Positions 11,876-48,016 of a DNA stretch of 64,000 bases are shown piece by piece; position 1 is the first letter of the stretch, and each line of letters begins with the position of its first letter. The DNA comes from Pelobacter sp. (GTDB taxonomy: Bacteria; Desulfobacterota; Desulfuromonadia; Geobacterales; Pseudopelobacteraceae), in the NCBI GenBank assembly GCA_030824515.1, contig JAVBXN010000013.1, positions 62,001 through 126,000 on the forward strand, in the 5' to 3' direction. The notes under the pieces were generated by a model. The model did no database searches and was not told where the DNA came from. It saw only the letters and a list, made by a program, of their open reading frames with translations. The position numbers were made by a program, and so were the translations under genes.

Positions 11876-13363
<1,488 letters not shown>

Positions 13364-13390: not shown

Positions 13391-13416
13391 AAGCCCGGCT
13401 TAGGCCGGGCTTTTTT
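13391..13416. terminator. Terminator between gdhA and draT
   Basis: GCCCGGC (13393-13399) pairs with GCCGGGC (13404-13410), flanked by AA and TTTTTT. The T run serves gdhA; the flanking A pair makes it usable from the draT side too. Confidence 0.88.
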
Positions 13417-14222
13417 CATACCGTGCACATAACATTGCGCACACGGTACTCTCCGCCGATCACCAGATACTCCCCCTCGCCCTTCATTATGCTGCCGGGC
13501 AGCAGGTCGTTGTAAAAGAAAACCTTGCAGAGCGGCACGCTCACCTTCCAGACCGTGGAACCGAACTCCCAGGCCCGCTCTTCATCCGATGTAAATGACA
13601 CCAGGTTATTCAGCCTGACGATCTGTTCCCGCTTGCCGGTCTGTTCAATAACGTCGTGCTCGCTTGCGTCGTTGGTGCCACGATAAAGAGCGATCACTTC
13701 TGTTTCAGGATATCTTCGCGACAACTCGAACTGGCAGTATTCATAGAGAATATCCAGCTGGGACTGGATCGCGTTGGTTCGCGCGCTACCTTTCATCACA
13801 TCCACCGAATAATAGAAATACGCTTCACTCTGAATGCCGCTAATGCGGCTTTTATGGAAGTTGGGCATGATTCCGATGCGACTTTCTACCCAACGTTTCA
13901 GAACCGCCCCTTCGATCGAGTTGGAGTCCATCATCCAGCCACGCAGAAAGCGCAGATAGCTGTTTTTGAGACTCTTCCTGGCGGTGTCTGTCTGCCCCTG
14001 CCAATGATGCAGCTGGAACTTGACCGACATGAAATCGTTAAAGACCAGTGCGCGCTCTTCCTGATTACAGAGAGAGGCAAGCCTGTCAAAGAGGAAACGG
14101 TTGCCGTCCTTGACCCCCTGGATCTCTAACGGTTGCGGATTCTCGTTGAAATGGTGTGAAGCGATCACCCATGGCGGCAGGTTGCAGTTGTTGAATGAAC
14201 CGTTGTGCATGACGGGCATCAC
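13416..14222 (-). CDS. draT: NAD(+)-dinitrogenase reductase ADP-ribosyltransferase DraT
   Basis: 268 residues matching DraT in length and in the N-terminal PPWVIASHHFNENPQPLEI block. The ADP-ribosyltransferase R-S-E pattern can be read: Arg181 in LYRGTND, S209-F-T-S212, and E249-x-E251 before YLVIGGEYRV. DraT modifies an arginine of NifH with ADP-ribose from NAD when ammonium or darkness/energy stress appears, switching nitrogenase off. Last gene of the nif unit, 35 bases after the NifX-family gene. The start is uncertain (GTG 14222, ATG 14219 or ATG 14210; AGAGG overlaps the first two). The reversing hydrolase DraG is not in the window. Confidence 0.82.
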   Translation of the reverse strand: MMPVMHNGSFNNCNLPPWVIASHHFNENPQPLEIQGVKDGNRFLFDRLASLCNQEERALVFNDFMSVKFQLHHWQGQTDTARKSLKNSYLRFLRGWMMDSNSIEGAVLKRWVESRIGIMPNFHKSRISGIQSEAYFYYSVDVMKGSARTNAIQSQLDILYEYCQFELSRRYPETEVIALYRGTNDASEHDVIEQTGKREQIVRLNNLVSFTSDEERAWEFGSTVWKVSVPLCKVFFYNDLLPGSIMKGEGEYLVIGGEYRVRNVMCTV

Positions 14223-14257: not shown

Positions 14258-14587
14258 CTACAGAATTTTGGCCAACTCCACCAAGGTCGTCCTGATCGGT
14301 CCACTGGCTACAAATGGTTCGATTCCCATCTGTTCAAGCTCGCTCTTGGGGTGCTCACCCATCTGAGCCGTGACCACGGCCCGGCAACCCGACAGCGCAG
14401 AGGCAATGCTTTTCAACAGATGCATACGCAGCGGGTGTTCGGGATCAAAACTGCAGTAACGCTCGACTTTTCTTTCATCAACCAGTCTGGCACTGCCCTG
14501 TTCCACGTCATAAATCAAAAAACGCTCTGCATGGCCGAAGTGTTGGTTGATCTCTCTGCCGTCTTTTGATGCGACTGCTATCAGCAT
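14258..14587 (-). CDS. NifX/NifB-family dinitrogenase iron-molybdenum cofactor protein
   Basis: 109 residues, a single FeMo-cofactor-binding domain of the NifX/NafY/NifB-C-terminal type: MLIAVASKDGREINQHFGHAE, with the hallmark NQHFGHA, and a central segment with the GCRAVV-T-x-MG pattern. Such proteins hold cofactor precursors or finished cofactor during transfer to apo-dinitrogenase. GGGGG lies upstream of the ATG. It sits between fdxB and draT in the nif unit and is a distant paralogue of the gene at 15003. Which of the two is functionally NifX cannot be decided by reading. Confidence 0.88.
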   Translation of the reverse strand: MLIAVASKDGREINQHFGHAERFLIYDVEQGSARLVDERKVERYCSFDPEHPLRMHLLKSIASALSGCRAVVTAQMGEHPKSELEQMGIEPFVASGPIRTTLVELAKIL

Positions 14588-14650: not shown

Positions 14651-14914
14651 TTACATCAAAACCGGCGCAAAACTGAAACATTTCTTCGAGCAGGTACGCG
14701 CGCAGGCCTGGCAACCGATGCAGTTGCCGGGAGTAGCTACCCGCATATACATCTTGGCGGAGTCATCCCCATCCAACTCTTCAAAAGCCAGGACATCATG
14801 GGCACAGACCTTGAAACAGCGGCCGCAGCCGATACAGGTCTCTTCATCAATGCTGTTTATAAACTGCGGGGTCCACTCCTGTTTGTCGCGCGTCAATCCG
14901 GTAATGTAAGCCAT
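14651..14914 (-). CDS. fdxB: Nif-associated 2[4Fe-4S] ferredoxin (ferredoxin III type)
   Basis: 87 residues with two cluster motifs, C27/C30/C33/C37 and C65/C68/C71/C75, plus an extra Cys79, and the N-terminal extension DKQEWTPQFI seen in nif-specific ferredoxin III. It probably supplies electrons for cofactor assembly or to nitrogenase. AAGGAG stands at ideal distance from the ATG. Lies between two NifX-family genes, the usual nifX-fdxB arrangement. Confidence 0.9.
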   Translation of the reverse strand: MAYITGLTRDKQEWTPQFINSIDEETCIGCGRCFKVCAHDVLAFEELDGDDSAKMYMRVATPGNCIGCQACARTCSKKCFSFAPVLM

Positions 14915-15002: not shown

Positions 15003-15389
15003 TCAATCCTCGTCAAAGGCCGGTGTTTGCCCCTTATTCATCGCTTTCCTGATCCAGGGGGGAGGATTACTTCTCAGAACCTCCTGGAGTTTCTCAACCG
15101 TCTCTTTCAATCCTACTTCACAATTGGTCTTCATCGGATGGATTTTCTGGGCCACCAGCTTGGCAGCCGCCGGGCCGCCAATCTGCATCGTATAGACGAT
15201 GGCACAGTCGGAGAGCAATTGAGCCCTCGCAGCGATCCGATCCTCCTCGTCGACACCATGCTCGCCCACGCTGACCACCTCCAGGAAACCGGCCTCATTC
15301 GGTCCGATATTCCAGATGTGGAAGCTTTGACACTGGCCGAAATGCTGGTTGATGGTTTCGCCGTTTGATGTTGTAAATGCTATCTTCAT
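15003..15389 (-). CDS. nifX: NifX-family cofactor carrier, first gene of the nif unit
   Basis: 128 residues from the ATG at 15389 (MKIAFTTSNGETINQHFGQCQ), with AGGAAAGGAA upstream. The reading frame extends to 15599, but that stretch contains the sigma-54 promoter and the leader terminator, so the short start is right. The domain carries the NQHFGQ hallmark and an M-Q-IGGPAAAKL segment; a C-terminal tail of about 25 residues (PPPWIRKAMNKG) is typical of the nif-cluster version. Predicted role: binding NifB-co/FeMo-co intermediates between NifB, NifEN and NifDK. Confidence 0.87.
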   Translation of the reverse strand: MKIAFTTSNGETINQHFGQCQSFHIWNIGPNEAGFLEVVSVGEHGVDEEDRIAARAQLLSDCAIVYTMQIGGPAAAKLVAQKIHPMKTNCEVGLKETVEKLQEVLRSNPPPWIRKAMNKGQTPAFDED

Positions 15390-15412: not shown

Positions 15413-15446
15413 AAAAAAGGCGCACCATCTTTCCGATGGTGGCGCC
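15413..15446 (-). terminator. Intrinsic terminator in the nifX leader
   Basis: Minus strand: GGCGC-C-ACCATC (15446-15435) pairs with GATGGT-GCGCC (15429-15419) around GGAAA, one bulged C, followed by six T. It lies between the sigma-54 promoter and the nifX start with no gene upstream on that strand, so it must act as an attenuator. Its 5' arm overlaps the P2 hairpin of the ANTAR-like element. Confidence 0.88.
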
Positions 15447-15470
15447 CTTGCCATGCATTAGCGGTAATGC
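15440..15470 (-). promoter_or_regulatory. ANTAR-type two-hairpin antitermination element
   Basis: Minus strand, two consecutive hairpins with six-base loops. P1 (15470-15455): GCATT / AATGC with loop ACCGCT. P2 (15453-15440): TGGC / GCCA with loop AAGGGC. Both loops have A at position 1 and G at position 4, the signature of ANTAR-protein RNA targets. P2 uses bases 15446-15440, which are also the 5' arm of the terminator, so P2 and terminator are mutually exclusive: protein-stabilised P2 would permit read-through. The P2 stem is only 4 bp. Confidence 0.7.
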
Positions 15471-15491
15471 TTTATAACCTGCTTTTCCGCT

Positions 15492-15507
15492 AGCACATCG
15501 CATGCCA
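15492..15507 (-). promoter_or_regulatory. Sigma-54 promoter of the nifX-fdxB-draT unit
   Basis: Minus strand TGGCATGCGATGTGCT: GG at 15506-15505, GC at 15494-15493, ten bases between. Predicted start near 15481, about 11 bases before the ANTAR-like P1 hairpin. Confidence 0.75.
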
Positions 15508-15759: not shown

Positions 15760-16611
15760 ATGAAATCAAACTTGATCCATATAATCCTCTGCATGATCCT
15801 GATCGCCGCAGGCCCCGCAGGAGCCGAACCGGGTACGGTATCCGACGGCACACCCTACATCATGGGCGTGTTCCCCTTCGTGCCGACCGCCAACATAGAA
15901 GGGATATTTGCGCCACTGGCCGCCGAACTATCCCGATCCCTTGGCAGACCGGTCAAGCTCAGGACCGCTCCCTCCTTTGAAAAGTTCGCCGACGAGCTGA
16001 AAAACCACTCCTTTGACATCGCTTTTGTTCAACCCTTCGATTACGTGGATGTTTCCGGGCCAGGCGGATACCTGCCGCTGGCGGCCCGCAACGACATTCT
16101 CACCAGCCATATCGTGGTAAAACATGACAGCAGCTTGCGCAACCTTCAGGATCTTCGCGGAAAAAGCATCGGCATGCCCCCCAAGGTTGCCGCCGTCAGT
16201 TTCCTGAACCGTCTTTCACTGAAAAAGGCTGGGCTCACCCCCGACAAGGATGTAAAACTGGTCTACCTGGCCTCGCACCAGGCCTGCCTGCAGCAGTTGA
16301 TGATCGGAACGGTGGCTGCCTGCGGCGTTTCACCGGCCGGTGTCCGTCTGGCGGAAATGCAGCTTAAGACTACTTTCAGACTGATCCATGAATCCCCGTC
16401 AATCCCCACACCGCTGTTTGTTGTCAAAAAGAACCTGCCGAAAAAAGATCGCGATACGATGCTCAAAGTGCTGACCACCACCGACCTGGCCGGCGTCAAA
16501 CCGGACCTGCGGGCAATGTTCGTCGAGACGAAGGAAAAACCGTTTCGCAAGGCAAGCGACAGTGAGTATGAGGTTGTGCGCTCCTTGATGAAAACCTACT
16601 CGGTCAGATGA
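15760..16611 (+). CDS. PhnD-like periplasmic binding protein
   Basis: 283 residues with a Sec signal peptide (about 1-23, ending GPAGAEP) and the fold of the phosphate/phosphonate (PhnD/PtxB-like) binding family: [21 protein letters not shown] at the start of the mature protein, then VQPFDYV and [22 protein letters not shown] precedes the ATG. No permease or ATPase gene follows; instead its stop overlaps the start of a membrane hybrid kinase by four bases, so it probably presents a ligand to that kinase. Ligand unknown; members of this family bind diverse oxyanions and small organics. Confidence 0.87.
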
Positions 16612-19364
16612 CCCTGCTCCCCTCCCTCAAATACCGCATAGCGCTGATCATAGCGCTGATTGCCGGTGTGCTGCTAGCGATCGTGATCCGCCAGAATATC
16701 GCCATGTCCCACGCCATGGCAGAATACCAACTGGCTACCAAGGAAGAGGTGTTCGCATCCTTTCTGGAAGACATCAGCCGCAGCGCTCTTCTGAACGGAG
16801 AATACGAAGTCTTGCAGCTGTATCTGGACAAACTGCGCAAGGATCCTGACATCCTGCACATCAGGGCGGCGGACTACCGCGGAGTAGTGGTCTCCAGCAC
16901 CGAACCCTCGGAGTTGGGAATGCAGATCGGCGGCCTGCCGGTAACCGGTGGAAGCGAGTGGCAACACAGGGGGATCGTCAACGAAGCGGGTGAAATCGGC
17001 AGCATCGCGATACGCTTTTCCCACTCGGTCATCGACAAAGAGCACGCGCGGGTTCTGAAAACGAGCATATTGTACTCCGTGGCCGGTCTGGTGCTGCTGT
17101 TGGTGACCGGATATTTTATCGGCAGTCTGTTGACCCGACGGCTGCACAAGCTGACCCTGGCAGCCCGCTCCATCGCCGGCGGTGACCTGACGGTCCAGGT
17201 CACGGACAACAAGAACGATGAAATCGGTCTTTTGGGTGAATCGTTCAACAGCATGGCGCGACGCCTGGAAGTGATGATCGACGAGACGCACAGACTGAAC
17301 GAAGAACTTGAGCAGCGGGTGATTGAGCGCACAACCGAACTGGAAACCGCCAACATGCTGCTGGAACAGGCCCGTGATGCGGCCGATGCGGCAAATGCGG
17401 CCAAGGGGAATTTCCTGGCCAACATGAGCCACGAAATACGCACCCCGATGAATGCCATCGTGGGCATGTCGCGCCTGGCACTTCAAACCGATCTGACCCC
17501 TAAACAACGGGAATATCTGCGCAAAGTCGGATTTGCCGCCGATTCACTGCTGGGCATCATCAACGACATCCTTGACTTCTCCAAAATCGAGGCCGGACGG
17601 CTTGATATGGAAAAGGCCGATTTCCTGATCGAGGAAATGCTGGAAAAACTGGTCGCCGTCGTATCACCCCGTTTGCAGGAGAAAAAACTCGAATTCCTGA
17701 TCGAAGTATCATCCGAATTGCCCCCGTCCCTGATCGGAGACGCCACACGGTTGGGGCAGATCCTGCTCAACATGGTAAGTAATGCCGTAAAATTCACGGA
17801 ATCGGGTGAGATCCTGCTTTCGGTTCTCCAGATAAAGAGGCAGGAGCAGCGGGTGACCATTCGTTTCAGTGTGCGTGACACCGGAATCGGCATGACACGG
17901 GAAGAAATATCCAGACTGTTCCAGCCGTTCACACAGGCCGATGCCAGCATAAATCGAAAATACGGCGGAACCGGCCTGGGGCTTGCCATTTGCCGCCAGC
18001 TGGTCAGGATGATGGGAGGCAGCATCCAGGTGGTAAGCGAATCGGGTCGGGGGAGTGAGTTCAGCTTTGAGATCGATTTCATGGTAGGAAAGCTGCTGCC
18101 CCAACGGCTCGTCACTCCCGGACCTGATGTGCGCGGCATGAAGGTGCTGGTAATAGATGACAGTCTGCATTCCCGCGAAATATTTACAGAACAGCTCTCG
18201 TCACTCAGCTTCAGCGTAACCACAGCGGAAAACGCCGGACAGGGGCTTGCCGAACTGGAAAGCGCCTCTTCCGGCAAGCCCTTTGACCTGGTGATCATGG
18301 ACTGGGTCATGCCGGAGGTTGACGGGTTCGAAGCGACCCGCATGATCAGGAATGATCCGGGCATACAGCAACCCAAGATAATCCTGGCCACGGCCTACAG
18401 CAGCCAAAAAGCCGAGGAGCAGGCACGGCTAAATGGCCTGGACGGATATCTCTGCAAGCCGGTCAACCTTTCGGTGCTGTTCGACAGCATTATGAACGCG
18501 CTCGGCAAGGACTCGCAAACTTCCGCATCAAGCCCGGCCAGCGGTCAAACACTGGCAGAACTGGCCGCAATCCGGGGAGCACGGGCGCTGCTGGTGGAAG
18601 ACAATGAATTCAATCAGCAGGTTGCCACCGAACTTCTCGAATCGGCCGGACTTACGGTGAGCCTGGCGATTCATGGAAAACAGGCGCTGCAAATACTTGC
18701 CTCCGAAACATTCGATATCGTGCTCATGGATGTGCAGATGCCGGTAATGGACGGTCTGGAGGCAACTCGCCGCATACGGGAAATGTCCGGACTCGGCCAA
18801 CTGCCGGTGGTTGCCGTCACCGCCCACGCAATGCCCCAGGATCGCCAACGCTGCCTGGACGCCGGCATGAGCGACTATATTTCGAAGCCGATCGACCCTG
18901 ACGAGCTGAGACAGCTACTTGTCAGATGGGTTCCCCCACAGCGGGTCAAGCAGCAGGACAAGCAGACTCCCAGCCCGGAATCGTCCACGGGTAACGAACT
19001 GTCCCTGCCCGACAGCCTCCCGGGCATCGACATCCACTCCGGGTTGCGCATGTGTAACGACAAATGTTCCCTTTACCTGGAAATGCTGCAGAAATTCCGG
19101 AGAACCAGGCGGGATGAAGCCGGGGAGATCAACCGGCTCCTTGCGGCCGGAGAACTGGAGACTGCCGGCAGGATGGCCCACAACATGAAATCGGTGGCCG
19201 GCATTCTCGGAGCCACGGATCTTTCCGGCGCGGCCCAGCAGCTCGAGAGTGTCATATCCGGAAATCAGGCCGACCGCTTTGCAGCGACGCTTGACTGTTA
19301 TGCACAATCGCTGGAAGCGGTCATTGTCGGGCTGGACACCGCCCTGGGAGCAGCTTTGGAATAA
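16608..19364 (+). CDS. Membrane hybrid histidine kinase (HAMP-HisKA-HATPase-REC-REC-HPt)
   Basis: 918 residues. Two membrane helices (about 9-28 and 153-173) bracket a periplasmic loop of about 120 residues; then HAMP (175-225), coiled coil, HisKA with His275 in NMSHEIRTP, HATPase (to about 490), receiver 1 with Asp565, receiver 2 with Asp708, and an HPt domain with His858. This is a full internal phosphorelay of the BarA/ArcB kind. Start overlaps the stop of the PhnD-like gene (ATGA), so expression is coupled and the binding protein is the likely signal input. A final response regulator is not obvious next door. Confidence 0.94.
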
Positions 19365-21274: not shown

Positions 21275-21389
21275 CGATTCAATCTCGTATTTTGCACTCA
21301 GCAATCATTCCGCTTGAGCAGGAACCACAAATGCCGAATGCGGAACTGGCAAACCCAAAGCTGTTTTCGTGGAAAGGGGGACTCCGGAT

Positions 21390-22238
21390 ATGCAGAATTT
21401 GAAAGTATTCCTGTTTGCCTGTCTGTTGCCGGTTACGTTTGCAATAGCTGCAAACACGCCGGTATCCGCCGCAACGGGAAAAGCCTACACCATTGCCGTT
21501 ATCCCCTCGGCCCCGCCGGTAGCACTGCACAAGCAGTGGACCCCTTTTGTGGAGCGCCTCTCCCGGGAAACCGGCCTTGAGTTCCAACTCAAGATGTACG
21601 AAAAAATGGCCGAATTCGAACGTGACATCTGGAGCGGCACACCGGATTTCATCTTCTCCTCGCCGATCCAGACCGTGGTGGCCCGCAAGACCAACGGATA
21701 CGTGCCGCTGGTACGAGGCGGCAAAGATATATCGGTAGGCCTCTTCGTACGCAAGGAAGCCCCGTTCAAGAGCATCGACGATCTGGCCGGCAAGAGCATC
21801 TCCTTTGTCGGTAACAAGAATCTCTGCAGTGTCTTCATTCAGCACATGATGGGAGAGTACAGGAATAAATTGTCCTTCAACAGGGAATATACCGGATCAA
21901 CCAAAAACGTGATCATCAATGTGCTCCTGGGCAAGAGCGCAGCCGGAGCGGTGTTCATTCCTGAACTGGCGAGAGAGTCTGAAGATACCCGCAAGCAGCT
22001 GCGCGAAATACTGGTGACGCCGGCAATCGCACCCCACCCGCTCAGCTCACACCCGCGCGTGCCCCGGGCTGCACAGGAGGCGGTAAAGAGCGCCTCACTG
22101 GCCATTGCAGCGGCCAGCGGCGGCAGCGAACTGTTCAGGTCCCTTCGCATGGATGCCCCGGTAGCGGCAAACTATGATCGCGATTACAGGAATCTGGAAG
22201 AGATCGATATCGAGGGTCTCACCAATTGGGGAAAATAG
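21390..22238 (+). CDS. PhnD-like periplasmic binding protein (second)
   Basis: 282 residues from ATG 21390, chosen over the in-frame GTG at 21369 because AAAGGGGG lies 10 bases upstream. Signal peptide to about residue 30 (ending PVSAA), then YTIAVIPSAPPVALHKQW and the family segments FSSPIQTVVARK and IDDLAGKSISFVG. Distantly related to the protein at 15760. One base separates its stop from the start of a membrane PAS sensor, so it again pairs with a sensor rather than a transporter. Confidence 0.87.
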   Translation: MQNLKVFLFACLLPVTFAIAANTPVSAATGKAYTIAVIPSAPPVALHKQWTPFVERLSRETGLEFQLKMYEKMAEFERDIWSGTPDFIFSSPIQTVVARKTNGYVPLVRGGKDISVGLFVRKEAPFKSIDDLAGKSISFVGNKNLCSVFIQHMMGEYRNKLSFNREYTGSTKNVIINVLLGKSAAGAVFIPELARESEDTRKQLREILVTPAIAPHPLSSHPRVPRAAQEAVKSASLAIAAASGGSELFRSLRMDAPVAANYDRDYRNLEEIDIEGLTNWGK

Positions 22239-22239
22239 C

Positions 22240-23904
22240 ATGTCATTCCTGCCGAAACGACTACATGCGCAGATTATCCTGATCGTCTCGTGCATCCTGA
22301 TAATCACCGGCGTAATCACCGGCTGGATCACCGCCAGGAATCAGACAGCAGGCCTTCTGGCTGCCAAGCGCGCGGATGCTTCAATCATGGCCAGGAACTT
22401 TGCCGAAAGCTGCGCCCACCAACTGTTGGTCCAGGACTACGCCGAACTGGAATCGTTTCTGGTCAAATCGGCGGAATCACCCGACATCCGTCGGATCCAA
22501 CTATGCGAACCGGACGGGGCCCTGGTCTGGGATGTCGTACACGACCCCGGTGGACAACCGTTTGCAAAAACCGGACTGGCCCGCCTCACCCCGCCCGGAT
22601 CCGGCTCGGCAGTGATCATCCAGGAAACCGGCCAGTTGGTCATCTGGCAGCCTGTCATGGCGGGAAACCTGCTCGGCTGGCTCAAAGCGGACTTCAGCCT
22701 GTCGGCCATCCGGGAAGCACATACCAGAACCTGGCGGAAGAGCCTGTTCCTGGCCATGACCTGGGTCGCCTGCAGCTCCTTTCTGATTGTTCTGCTACTG
22801 CGCCCGATAGCCAGGTCTATAGAAAAACTGACCGCATTTTCCAAACAGCTTGACGAGCATAAGGGGGCACAGATCTCCGTCACCGGCCAGTCTCTGGAAA
22901 TTTTTGAACTGGGAGAATCCCTGAACGAAGCCTCGGCAAAACTTCTGTCAACGGAACGACAGATTCTAGCTGAACGGGAACGATTGCAGAAGAGCGAAGA
23001 AAATTACCGGCGGTTGCTTGTTACGATTCAAGAGGGAATCTGGGTTATCGATACGGAGGGGGTGACCACCTTCGTCAATCCGCGCATGGCCGAGATTCTG
23101 GGGTACACGGCCGACGAAATGATCGGCAAGCATCTTTACAGCTTCATGGATGAACAGGGTCGGCAAATTGCCGAACGCAATATCGAACGGCGAAAGCAGG
23201 GCGTAAAAGAGCGGCACGATTTCGAGTTTATCAGAAAGAACGGGGAACGGATTTTCACCAGGCTCGAAACCGGGCCGATACTTGGCGAGGCCGGGGAATA
23301 CGCCGGGTCAATCGCCGCCGTTGCCGATATAACCGATACCAGAAAAGCGAACCTGCAACTCCACGCCAGCGAGCAGGCCTTTCGCGCCGTTGTGGAAAAC
23401 TCGCCCGATGTCATCGTGCGCTATGACCGGGAAGGAAGGCGCATATACGTAAATCCCGAATTTGAAAGGGCCAACCACATCACTGCAGAGCAGGTGCTGG
23501 GCAAGAAACCGGCGGAACTCTTGACAGAGCTGGCGCCCATGGCCGAGTTTTTTACGGAAAAGCTGATGCTGGCGATGGAGTTCGGTGCCATCACAAAGAT
23601 CGACCTCTCCTGGGTCAAAGACGGCAAACCGGTCTGCTGGTATGTGCGGGTAGTGCCGGAATTCGATGAGGAAGGCACGGTGGTGAGCGCGCTTACCATC
23701 TGGAGCGATATCTCGGAGCGCAAGCAGATCGAGGAGGAGATTCGCAGACTCAACGAAGAGCTCGAACAGCGGGTGCAGGAAAGAACCGCCGAACTGGAGC
23801 AGACAAATGAGGAGTTGCACAAGTTGAACCGGCTCTTCGTCGGACGTGAATTGCGCATGATCGAGCTGAAGGAGAGGATCAGGGAGCTGGAGGGTAAAGG
23901 GTAA
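22240..23904 (+). CDS. Membrane PAS-PAS sensor without kinase domain
   Basis: 554 residues from ATG 22240. Two membrane helices (about 11-31 and 168-188) enclose a periplasmic sensor region; a HAMP-like stretch, PAS 1 (about 253-370) and PAS 2 (about 380-495) follow, then a coiled coil ([17 protein letters not shown]) and the tail NRLFVGRELRMIELKERI at the very end. There is no HisKA, HATPase, GGDEF or EAL domain. The frame ends cleanly at a stop; the kinase is not a frameshifted remnant downstream. It may act by hetero-association with the kinase at 26167, which has a similar coiled coil. Confidence 0.88.
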   Translation: MSFLPKRLHAQIILIVSCILIITGVITGWITARNQTAGLLAAKRADASIMARNFAESCAHQLLVQDYAELESFLVKSAESPDIRRIQLCEPDGALVWDVVHDPGGQPFAKTGLARLTPPGSGSAVIIQETGQLVIWQPVMAGNLLGWLKADFSLSAIREAHTRTWRKSLFLAMTWVACSSFLIVLLLRPIARSIEKLTAFSKQLDEHKGAQISVTGQSLEIFELGESLNEASAKLLSTERQILAERERLQKSEENYRRLLVTIQEGIWVIDTEGVTTFVNPRMAEILGYTADEMIGKHLYSFMDEQGRQIAERNIERRKQGVKERHDFEFIRKNGERIFTRLETGPILGEAGEYAGSIAAVADITDTRKANLQLHASEQAFRAVVENSPDVIVRYDREGRRIYVNPEFERANHITAEQVLGKKPAELLTELAPMAEFFTEKLMLAMEFGAITKIDLSWVKDGKPVCWYVRVVPEFDEEGTVVSALTIWSDISERKQIEEEIRRLNEELEQRVQERTAELEQTNEELHKLNRLFVGRELRMIELKERIRELEGKG

Positions 23905-45129: not shown

Positions 45130-47880
45130 TCAGTTATGGGCCAGTTTCTGCGCCTCCTTGGCGTTGGCCTGGAACAGGTTGGCGGTTTCGAACACCAGGT
45201 TGAGCGTGCCGCGATACCCGACCCACATCTTCTGGTGGGCTCCCAGGCGATCGAACACCGGCAGTCCGGCCCGCAGGTGCGCTCCGATCTTGAGCTTGTT
45301 CGCCGCCTGACGGCCGTTCGAGTTGGCCACCAGCAGATCGGCCCCCTTGGCCGCCTCTTCCAGATCCTCCAGGTCGCCGACAAAAACGTTCCCGCAAGGC
45401 AGGGAATCCAGTCCGCGGGTGCGGGTTGCGGAGAGCGCCGCCTGGATCTCGCACCCCATGCCGGCCAGGAAACGGGTCAGGGTCTTGAGGTTGTCCGACT
45501 CCAGCGCCAGCGCCACCTTTTTGTTGCCGAACTGGTAGTGGCTGTCCACCATGGCGTCCATCAACCGGCTGCGCCAGCGGCGGTGCTTGTCAGGAACCGG
45601 TCTCCCGCTGATCGCGGAAAGCGACTCCATCAGCAGGTCGGTCTCGGCCAGACCGGTCAGCGATGTAAAGCCATGGGCCGGAATGTCGAACTTCTCTTTA
45701 AGCTTCAATGCCGCCTTGGCCAGCGAATCACCGACATATAACGTCGCAACGCTGCGCCCCGCCTTCCTGATATCTTCAACCGTTATCCCACCGGTCGATA
45801 GCGGCGACACCACCTCGTCGATATGCCCGTCCATCGCGTTAGAGATGTCCGGGATCGTCAGTACCGTCAGCCCGAATGACTCGACCAGCTCTTTCAGCTC
45901 CTCCACATCGGCCGGTGTCAGGTGCGCTCCGGGCAGCAGGTTGACCTGGTCCGGCACGGTCGCGCCCCCTTCCGGGAGGCTGGAGACGATCGCCTCGACC
46001 GCCGCGGCATAACCTTCCTGCAGCGAACCGCAGTAATCGGGAGTCGCGGCATGGATGATCGGGATGTGCGCCGTTTCGGGGTGCTCCTGGCGGAAATGCA
46101 CGATGGCGCTGTGCACGTCGTCGCCCATGGTCTCGGTCAGTCCCGAGGTCATCACCCCCACCACCTGGGGCTGGAACTTCTCGATCACCCGACCGATGCC
46201 CTTCTTCAGGTTCTCCCAGCCGCCGAAAATGGCGCTGTCCTCGCTCATCGCGGTTGCGTTCAGTGCGATCGATTCCTTGTAGTGCCTTGACAGCTGCAGC
46301 CGGATGAAAGTCGAGCAGCCCTGGGCGCCGTGCAGCAGGCCGAGCATGTTGTCAATCCCCAGGTAAGCCATGGTGGCGCCCAGCGCGGGCGAATTCTTCT
46401 GCGGATTGACCGTGGCGGCCTTGGTTGAGACCTTGACCCGCGAGGCCGATATGTCCTCGGCCAGGAAATCCTCCGCATGCCGCAGAGGAGGCAGTTCACC
46501 TGTTCCCTCCGCTTTCTCCCAGGGCGCCGGAGCGTTCAGGACAGGCCAGATCGGGTTGTTGACGGTCATGTCCAGCTGCTGGGCGAAGGTCACCATCCCC
46601 TCGTAGCCGGCATAGGGATGGGAACGGCCGTGGTTGATATCCAGGAAAGGGGTCTTGGTCTTGAGCGCCAGGAACTTGGTCTTGCCGCCGGCCACGATCA
46701 GGTCCGGCATCTTCTCGCGCATGACCGCCAGCAGTCCGGCGGTGGAGGTATCTTCGATAATTTTGGCATCCTGGTGCATCAGCCCTTTCATGCGGTAGAA
46801 ATCCTCCAGCGTCGAGTTCTGGGTTCCGGCCGCCAGGATCTCAACTCCCAGCTCACGCAGCGAGTTGACCATCGACCAGGTCTTGACGCCACCGGTGAAG
46901 AGCACCGCCCGTTTCCCTTCCAGTCTCTCGCGATAGGGCGCGATCCGCTGACGGCATTTGGCCTCTTCCTCTTCCAGCAGCTTTTCGACCCGATCCTGCA
47001 TGACCCGCTTCTCCAGGCCGTTAACGATATTGTCCAGCTCGCGGGCGATGTCGCGCAGTGCCTTGGCGGTGTCGGTCATGCCGTAGAAAGACTCCTCCAG
47101 GTAGGGCATGCCGTAGGTTTTCTGCATCTTCTTGGCCAGGTTGGTCAGGGACTTGGAACAGATGATGATATTGAGCTTGGCCCGATGGGCGTAGCGCAAC
47201 TCCTCGAATTTTGCGTCGCCGCTGAAGCAGGAGAGGATCTGGATTCCCAGCCTGTCGAAGAGCGGCAGCATGCCCCACAGGTCGCCGGCAATGTTGTACT
47301 CGCCGATCAGGTTGATCGGGTATTCCCCCAATAACGGCGGTTCGGTGGTGCCTATCACATACTTGAAGAGGATCTCTCCGGCCAGCCGGTTGCCGATATT
47401 CTTGTCACCGATGAAGCCGGGGGTGTTGACCGGGATCACCGGGATTGCGACTTTTCCTGACGCAGCCGCGCAAACCGCCTCCACATCGTCGCCGGTCATG
47501 GCGGTCACGCAGGTGGCATAGACGAAGATGGCCCGAGCCTGGTCCTTGTAACGCTCCGCAAGATCCAGGATGGCCTTGTACAGTTTCTTCTCGCCGCCGA
47601 AGATCACATCGTTCTCCAGCATCTCGGTGGTGAAACCGCGCCGGTAGAGTTGCGAATCGCTGGAGCGGGCCCCGCGATTGTCCCATGAGTTTCCGGCGCA
47701 GGCGATCGGGCCATGCACCAGGTGGATCACGTCGGTGATCGGCATCAGGACCACGCGGGCACCATCGTAGGCGCAGGAGCGTTCGGTTCCCTCGCCCGGT
47801 TCGGATTTCTTGCAGAACTTGGGAGCACCCTTGTCGTGGGTTTCGCAATTGTCGGTATCGTACCAGTCCGGTTTGGCCAT
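45130..47880 (-). CDS. nifEN: Fused nitrogenase FeMo-cofactor scaffold protein NifE-NifN
   Basis: 916 residues from ATG 47880 (MAKPDWYDTD), with AAGAGGAT upstream; the longer frame to 47997 crosses the promoter and terminator and is not used. The NifE half has the three cluster cysteines C36, C61 (GPIACAGNSWDNRG) and C124. The NifN half begins after a linker near residue 470 and contains LGIDNMLGLLHGAQGCSTF and TSGLTETMGDD. The complex receives the NifB cofactor precursor and matures it to FeMo-co for NifDK. Fusion of nifE and nifN into one gene is known in Geobacter relatives. No frameshift is seen at the junction. Confidence 0.95.
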   Translation of the reverse strand: MAKPDWYDTDNCETHDKGAPKFCKKSEPGEGTERSCAYDGARVVLMPITDVIHLVHGPIACAGNSWDNRGARSSDSQLYRRGFTTEMLENDVIFGGEKKLYKAILDLAERYKDQARAIFVYATCVTAMTGDDVEAVCAAASGKVAIPVIPVNTPGFIGDKNIGNRLAGEILFKYVIGTTEPPLLGEYPINLIGEYNIAGDLWGMLPLFDRLGIQILSCFSGDAKFEELRYAHRAKLNIIICSKSLTNLAKKMQKTYGMPYLEESFYGMTDTAKALRDIARELDNIVNGLEKRVMQDRVEKLLEEEEAKCRQRIAPYRERLEGKRAVLFTGGVKTWSMVNSLRELGVEILAAGTQNSTLEDFYRMKGLMHQDAKIIEDTSTAGLLAVMREKMPDLIVAGGKTKFLALKTKTPFLDINHGRSHPYAGYEGMVTFAQQLDMTVNNPIWPVLNAPAPWEKAEGTGELPPLRHAEDFLAEDISASRVKVSTKAATVNPQKNSPALGATMAYLGIDNMLGLLHGAQGCSTFIRLQLSRHYKESIALNATAMSEDSAIFGGWENLKKGIGRVIEKFQPQVVGVMTSGLTETMGDDVHSAIVHFRQEHPETAHIPIIHAATPDYCGSLQEGYAAAVEAIVSSLPEGGATVPDQVNLLPGAHLTPADVEELKELVESFGLTVLTIPDISNAMDGHIDEVVSPLSTGGITVEDIRKAGRSVATLYVGDSLAKAALKLKEKFDIPAHGFTSLTGLAETDLLMESLSAISGRPVPDKHRRWRSRLMDAMVDSHYQFGNKKVALALESDNLKTLTRFLAGMGCEIQAALSATRTRGLDSLPCGNVFVGDLEDLEEAAKGADLLVANSNGRQAANKLKIGAHLRAGLPVFDRLGAHQKMWVGYRGTLNLVFETANLFQANAKEAQKLAHN

Positions 47881-47926: not shown

Positions 47927-47979
47927 AAAAAAACGGCGCTCCACATCTTATTAAAGATGAAATGTGGGGAGGCGCCGTT
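47927..47979 (-). terminator. Intrinsic terminator in the nifEN leader
   Basis: Minus strand: the arm at 47979-47962 pairs with the arm at 47946-47932 (AACGGCGC with GCGCCGTT, then TCC with GGA and ACAT with ATGT), followed by seven T. It lies downstream of the sigma-54 promoter and before nifEN, so nif transcripts must pass it. It could also end read-through from the kinase gene at 48096. Confidence 0.8.
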
Positions 47980-48000
47980 GCCGGAGTTTGAGTCCATAGG

Positions 48001-48016
48001 AGCATTTGACGTGCCA
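48001..48016 (-). promoter_or_regulatory. Sigma-54 promoter of nifEN
   Basis: Minus strand TGGCACGTCAAATGCT: GG at 48015-48014, GC at 48003-48002, ten bases between, perfect TGGCACG box. Predicted start near 47990, about 110 bases before the nifEN ATG. Confidence 0.85.

Follow-up and report, generated by a model that had tools for sequence, protein, structure and literature searches.

The stretch of DNA analysed here (the window, 64,000 nucleotides of a Pelobacter sp. contig) carries on its minus strand nifX, a nif-specific ferredoxin gene, a gene for a NifX/NifB C-terminal-like protein and draT, a gene order that had been read from the sequence and is borne out by profile matches. Upstream of nifX lies a leader (15413-15507) with a sigma-54 promoter, two hairpins with six-base loops (P1 and P2) and an intrinsic terminator. 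The features, all on the minus strand, are as follows.

13416-14222, minus strand: draT (PF07357, E 7e-114)
14258-14587, minus strand: NifX/NifB C-terminal-like protein (PF02579)
14651-14914, minus strand: nif-specific ferredoxin III (TIGR02936, above cut-off)
15003-15389, minus strand: nifX, with its ATG at 15389 (TIGR02663, above cut-off)
15413-15418, minus strand: U-tract of the terminator, a run of six T (sequence)
15419-15447, minus strand: intrinsic terminator, its 5' arm taking in the P2 loop's 3' half together with the 3' arm of P2 (predicted fold)
15440-15453, minus strand: P2, TGGC-AAGGGC-GCCA, ANTAR-type hexaloop, proposed site of the ANTAR regulator, found order-wide (pattern, covariation)
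15455-15470, minus strand: P1, GCATT-ACCGCT-AATGC, hexaloop with A at position 1 and G at position 4 (A1/G4), the same in the ortholog of genome G036, function doubtful (sequence, shuffles, relatives)
15493-15507, minus strand: sigma-54 (-24/-12) promoter TGGCATGCGATGTGC (pattern match in the window; its association with P2 recurs in relatives)

A gene for an NADP-specific glutamate dehydrogenase (12017-13363, plus strand) is convergent with draT. In Geobacter sulfurreducens, draT (GSU2802), nifX, a ferredoxin gene and the gene of a cofactor-family protein are listed together in an RpoN-linked group whose first member is nifEN (PMC2725144). The sharing of a unit between draT and nif genes is therefore not new in kind.

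Anatomy of the nifX leader

The promoter, the two hexaloop hairpins and the terminator described in the original prediction all lie on the minus strand where it had placed them. Judging from the -24/-12 spacing, transcription would start near 15481. Taken by itself, the sigma-54 motif does not reach significance, with four matches in the window against 1.93 expected. The P2 core, GGCAAGGGCGCC, occupies 15452-15441. In the predicted fold the terminator (-20.2 kcal/mol) has its arms at about 15447-15435 and 15429-15419, and bases 15447-15440 or thereabouts are common to it and P2, in agreement with the claim that the second hairpin and the terminator share an arm.

The predicted fold of the 86-nt leader is more stable than those of shuffled versions (z -2.65, a stability matched by 2 of 200 shuffles). 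Rfam gave no match at gathering score in the whole window, and at E ≤ 5 only two non-credible matches (E 1.5 and 4.5) in a stretch of 301 bases. Taken with the recurrence across the order described below, the fold score places the promoter, P2 and the terminator beyond chance; the same does not clearly hold for P1.

P2-bearing leaders and the ANTAR protein

A strict pattern, consisting of a sigma-54 promoter and GGC-AANGRN-GCC at a spacing of 15-45 nt, was found in 126 of the 141 genomes of the order and in 26 of its 29 genera, against four matches of the reversed control in the same 141 genomes. Within the family of the window's genome, a strict short-spaced pattern was present in 52 of 76 genomes, with no match of its reversed control. 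A looser family pattern (TGGC-N8-TGC, 25-55 nt, GGCAANGRNGCC), the promoter part of which admits some chance matches, occurred in 69 of the 76. In genomes G009, G019 and G061 the only matches to this loose pattern are probably chance ones, as the promoter element is not a proper one, and G035, G042 and G075 gave no match to either the loose or the strict short-spaced pattern, nor any NifX match. These two patterns thus leave six of the 76 genomes with no good leader; five of the six gave no NifX match at E ≤ 1e-15, and G019 gave one.

In the genome under study the sigma-54/P2/terminator unit lies 5' of five genes: nifX and nifEN within the window, and nifH, nifV and nifB on contig C46. With NCBIfam, nifEN, nifH and nifV scored above cut-off and nifB slightly below (E 1.5e-99; 333.7 vs 343.65 bits). 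A second copy of nifH had no such unit in the stretch examined. The nifEN unit of the window comprises the following.

45130-47880, minus strand: nifEN, fused (NF011047, above cut-off)
47928-47982, minus strand: nifEN leader, with P2 GGCAACGGCGCC (47982-47971), terminator and T-run (pattern, fold)
48002-48016, minus strand: sigma-54 promoter, with predicted +1 at about 47990 (pattern match)

Across the collection of 201 leaders, the first downstream gene was nifB in 52, nifH in 50, nifE(N) in 45, nifX in 31, nifV in 12 and another gene in 11, as assigned by clustering and product reading. Twenty of an initial 221 leaders had been dropped for want of a T-run; these included nine nifV leaders from Geomonas, Citrifermentans and their kin, a tenth nifV leader with a strong hairpin, several leaders with near T-runs and one chance match.

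The loci of Geomonas, Citrifermentans and kin whose product was read as NifV (L266, L283, L291, L292, L296, L297, L298, L304, L308 and L350) have a sigma-54 promoter and a P2 lying 50-58 nt from the start codon. Nine of these ten leaders have no T-run, and the predicted fold pairs up the Shine-Dalgarno region in several of the ten. Possibly, the ANTAR switch acts on translation rather than termination in the nifV leaders that lack a T-run.

A fourth pair of P2, formed by the base 5' of GGC and the base 3' of GCC, lies outside the selection pattern. Among 198 distinct contexts drawn from the 201 leaders, these two bases could pair in 112, compared with 61 ± 5 after permutation and 80 ± 4 after permutation within gene, and none of 2000 permutations reached the observed count in either case. 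T-A, C-G and A-T are all frequent there, and slid pairs had no comparable excess. Compensatory change, which had been proposed as a check of both hairpins, is thus seen in P2. The pair belongs to P2 and not to the terminator. In nifB leaders, however, it is formed in just 5 of 52, the rest keeping a weak 3-bp stem, and this counts against a reading based on P2 alone.

A relaxed scan that allowed any 3-bp stem returned GGC/GCC in 181 of 186 sites, whereas two control loops gave 17 and 2 sites; the pattern itself had served to collect the majority of these loci, and the invariance of the P2 core is partly by construction. The AANGRN loop of the collected leaders is likewise a product of selection. 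The P2 loop of the window, AAGGGC, has A1 and G4, and its hairpin overlaps the terminator.

These data bear on the explanation that the terminator is of the ordinary, leaky sort and regulates nothing, P1 and P2 being incidental. The predicted strength of the terminator on its own is in keeping with it. A terminator alone does not account, however, for the conserved GGCAANGRNGCC and its covarying flank, which lie between sigma-54 promoters and nif start codons, and the base at -1 pairs in P2 rather than in the terminator. We judge this explanation highly improbable.

A search of the genome for an ANTAR regulator, suggested as a further check, found a single gene (Pfam PF03861, E 5.8e-20, one copy). 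Its product is a receiver-ANTAR response regulator of 192 aa with structure matches to EutV (6wsh, E 1.7e-33) and to 1s8n, a "putative antiterminator" (E 5.3e-40). Of nine EutV residues involved in RNA contact or dimerization, taken from PMC8934654 with a 2-residue numbering offset inferred from the alignment, eight are kept (R142, K143, E146, K147, K149, E160, Y164 and M172) and one is changed (E161 to G). An ANTAR match was obtained in 70 of the 76 family genomes, as a single match in 66 of these 70. The six genomes with none are all at most 90% complete, and G003, G005 and G036 have strict-pattern leaders yet no ANTAR match.

A sigma-54 element, TGGCACGGCAAGTGC, lies directly 5' of the ANTAR gene (L068, 3910-3924), and no P2 unit was seen between this element and the ANTAR start codon. 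Divergent to the ANTAR gene are genes for a PhnD-like protein and a histidine kinase (L068, 1401-3822), and PhnD-like periplasmic binding proteins and sensor proteins also adjoin the nifX operon (window 15760-16611, 16608-19364 and 21369-23904). It is possible that a PhnD-like/sensor pair serves as the sensor for the ANTAR regulator. G035 (L183) and G075 (L210) carry an ANTAR gene but gave neither a NifX match nor, with the patterns used, a P2 leader; the regulator may serve other genes there.

The terminator could also be operated by a different RNA-binding factor, CsrA for example, or by the RNA alone, with the ANTAR protein merely correlated. The CsrA core is GGA, and GGA is found in the P2 loop (as AANGGA) in just 7 of 198 leaders. 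For this rarity CsrA was set aside as the P2 factor. In favor of this alternative, the gnfR transcript of G. sulfurreducens is reduced in a csrA mutant (PMC11934962). The loops nevertheless obey the A1/G4 rule of ANTAR targets, and Rfam offered no credible match; we consider this alternative very unlikely. ANTAR-type control of the leader, as originally proposed, instead draws on the A1/G4 loop of P2 overlapping the terminator, on the one ANTAR regulator and on the order-wide nif regulon.

P1 within and outside the family

In print, P1 is defined by a stem of at least 3 bp and a hexaloop with A1 and G4 (PMC3369931). Leaders of the window's family rarely have such a hairpin. An ANNGNN loop on a stem of at least 3 bp was found in 7 of 146 (5.9 expected from shuffles) and on a stem of at least 4 bp in 4 of 146 (2.2 ± 1.5 expected; reached by 23 of 100 shuffles). 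At a stem of at least 5 bp there were 2 of 146 against 0.5 expected (reached by 8 of 100), and these two are the nifX leader of the window and the almost identical one of its ortholog in G036. When the loop rule was changed to require A1 alone, G4 alone or neither, the counts in the first 110 leaders were at the level of shuffles. That first set had lost one of 111 leaders, which looked coding, and had its P2 start re-set where an earlier partial match existed.

The division by family placed records from outside the family genomes with the other families, and one of them, locus L260 from a metagenome-assembled genome with a NifX 82% identical, may belong to the window's family. With L260 included, the counts become 8 of 147 at a stem of at least 3 bp (5.4 expected), 5 of 147 at 4 bp or more (1.8 expected; 3 of 200 shuffles reach this) and 3 of 147 at 5 bp or more (0.5 expected; 3 of 200). 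A few P1 hairpins of the family may therefore be real, with a stem of at least 4 bp in at most about 3% of its leaders.

The other families differ. Hairpins with stems of at least 3, 4 and 5 bp occurred in 26, 23 and 23 of their 55 leaders (2.6, 0.8 and 0.2 expected), or in 25, 22 and 22 of 54 when L260 is removed, and P1 was present in 21 of 29 nifH and nifB leaders, mainly from Geomonas. The scan therefore detects P1 where it is present. Stems differ between species of these families (GATAC/GTATC, GAACAC/GTGTTC and, in L342, GGGTAC/GTACCC). The fold of the segment between the predicted +1 and P2 tells the same two groups apart, with a mean z of 0.11, no better than shuffles, in the window's family (108 leaders) and of -1.20 in the others (46 leaders).

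There is no room for P1 in 33 of the 146 leaders of the family (30 of 37 nifB, 2 of 34 nifE and 1 of 28 nifX leaders), where the distance from the predicted +1 to P2 is below 12 nt, and none of these 33 has a P1-like hairpin within the 70 nt upstream of P2. The nifEN leader of the window belongs to this kind; it cannot hold a P1, since only about 8 nt lie between its predicted +1 and P2. Of the five leaders in this genome, the nifX leader alone has a P1-like hairpin.

The word ANCAGNA was found between promoter and P2 in 24 of 88 non-redundant leaders (7.2 expected), a weak signal, as many words were scanned. Among the first 110 leaders, ANCAGNA/CAGTA-like words upstream of P2 showed weak enrichment with no assignable structure.

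The original prediction saw in the leader the two-hairpin geometry of ANTAR antitermination, and by eye that description fits this leader. In such a canonical dual-hexaloop switch P1 would serve for recruitment and P2 for antitermination. Several features of the window P1 speak for it: it is a clean 5-bp hairpin with an A1/G4 hexaloop, it is identical in the near relative G036, and its loop ACCGCT is also the P1 loop of Geomonas sp. Red32 nifH (L306). The nifX leaders of the family are weakly above shuffles (stem of at least 4 bp in 3 of 28 vs 0.7 expected, 2 of 100 reaching; at least 5 bp in 2 of 28 vs 0.2, 4 of 100 reaching), as is the family as a whole if L260 is counted, and dual ANTAR substrates have been published for nitrogenase units of Pelobacter carbinolicus (PMC3369931). 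Against this, the four remaining leaders of the genome have no P1-like hairpin and the family total is 4-5 of about 146. In G010 the loop has lost G4 (ACCGCT to ACGATT) although the stem is kept, and no compensatory change was seen in P1 among close relatives; L043 is the only other nifX leader of the family with a 4-bp P1. The P1-P2 linker of the window, 1-2 nt, also falls outside the range of the Enterococcus faecalis eut leaders and is shorter than a 3-nt EutV linker that strongly cut induction (PMC3369931), while linkers in the other families measure 6-16 nt.

Judged by the refuting conditions that came with the original prediction, the outcome is mixed, with compensatory change in P2 and an ANTAR gene on one side and the behavior of P1 on the other. 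The dual-hairpin geometry as a general working part of these leaders is consequently not upheld by the family counts, with or without L260, and we lean toward regarding the window P1 as a chance hairpin or a local addition. Inclusion of L260 slightly raised our estimate for the two-hexaloop switch, which we still hold to be unlikely, and slightly lowered those for a switch based on P2 and for one run by another factor.

A proposed P2-based switch and its known relatives

Judging from the sequence comparisons, the nifX leader probably acts as a GnfR/ANTAR-type antitermination switch, mainly or only through P2. Leader RNA would start at the sigma-54 promoter. By default, the hairpin at 15447-15419 and its six U would stop the polymerase 5' of nifX. 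An active ANTAR response regulator, presumably a phosphorylated dimer, would grip the P2 hexaloop at A1 and G4; with P2 held, the GCC needed by the terminator would be withheld, and the polymerase would read through into nifX, the ferredoxin gene, the second NifX-like gene and draT. With the same P2-terminator unit at nifEN, nifH, nifV and nifB, one protein could gate the whole regulon.

Nearly all leaders of the family have no P1, and therefore the regulator probably loads directly on P2. In the nifEN leader of this genome and in most of the collected nifB leaders P2 starts at about +5 to +9, so loading there would proceed with no recruitment hairpin. We are inclined to think, with somewhat less assurance than for the switch itself, that one ANTAR hexaloop suffices for antitermination across the nif regulon of this family.

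That nitrogenase genes can be under ANTAR control has been published before. What is new here is the form with one hexaloop, together with the presence beside it of a two-hexaloop form on orthologous genes of a neighboring family. No report of nif leaders lacking P1 was found among the matches listed in a search of the literature on ANTAR antitermination, nitrogenase and gnfR, most subscription papers being outside its reach. If the reading is correct, orthologous genes would offer a series, made by nature, of leaders with one hairpin and leaders with two, from which the role of P1 could be read, and the need for P1 becomes testable where leaders with no room for it stand beside P1-bearing leaders of orthologous genes. 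More broadly, the leaders suggest that, throughout an order of nitrogen fixers from the environment, several nif operons are under ANTAR control.

The closest known system is GnfK/GnfR of G. sulfurreducens, in which, as Ueki and Lovley reportedly described in 2010, an ANTAR response regulator acts by antitermination at nif promoters that bear terminators. The genes are GSU2822 (gnfR) and GSU0941 (gnfK) (PMC7962754), the former tag also being given in PMC11934962. The window's genome resembles it in having a receiver-ANTAR protein with EutV contact residues (8 of 9) and several nif units in which a terminator follows a sigma-54 promoter. The arrangement of genes is different: nifEN, nifX, the ferredoxin gene, the NifX-like gene and draT form one sigma-54-linked group in G. 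sulfurreducens (PMC2725144), whereas here nifX and nifEN belong to two different units, and each of the two has a leader.

For ANTAR RNAs with two hexaloops the reference is EutV, where deletion of P1 lowered induction and shortening the linker to 3 nt strongly reduced it, E. faecalis eut linkers being about 5-12 nt (PMC3369931). Three nitrogenase-related units of P. carbinolicus with ANTAR substrates were found with a dual-hairpin model (Ramesh et al., 2012; PMC3369931). Later work on EutV showed that the dimer never holds more than one hexaloop at once, and the minimal motif was there redefined as a single hexaloop (Walshe et al., 2022; PMC8934654). In the same paper both hexaloops are held to be obligatory in vivo, P1 is called a recruitment hairpin, and how far single hexaloops serve is left open by its authors.

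The nifX leader and its relatives share with the EutV/eutP, NasR and AmiR systems (PMC3369931, PMC8934654) an A1/G4 P2 that overlaps an intrinsic terminator and a regulon of several operons. They depart from them in the scarcity of P1, which is present in 4 of 146 (or 5 of 147) leaders of the family and impossible in the short ones, and in the 1-2 nt linker of the window. The nifH and nifB leaders of Geomonas, Citrifermentans and kin (L266, L283, L296, L306, L347 and others) have the same arrangement of promoter, P2 and terminator as the window's family, but in many of them, unlike in that family, there is a real P1 whose stem measures 6-7 bp, with linkers of 6-16 nt.
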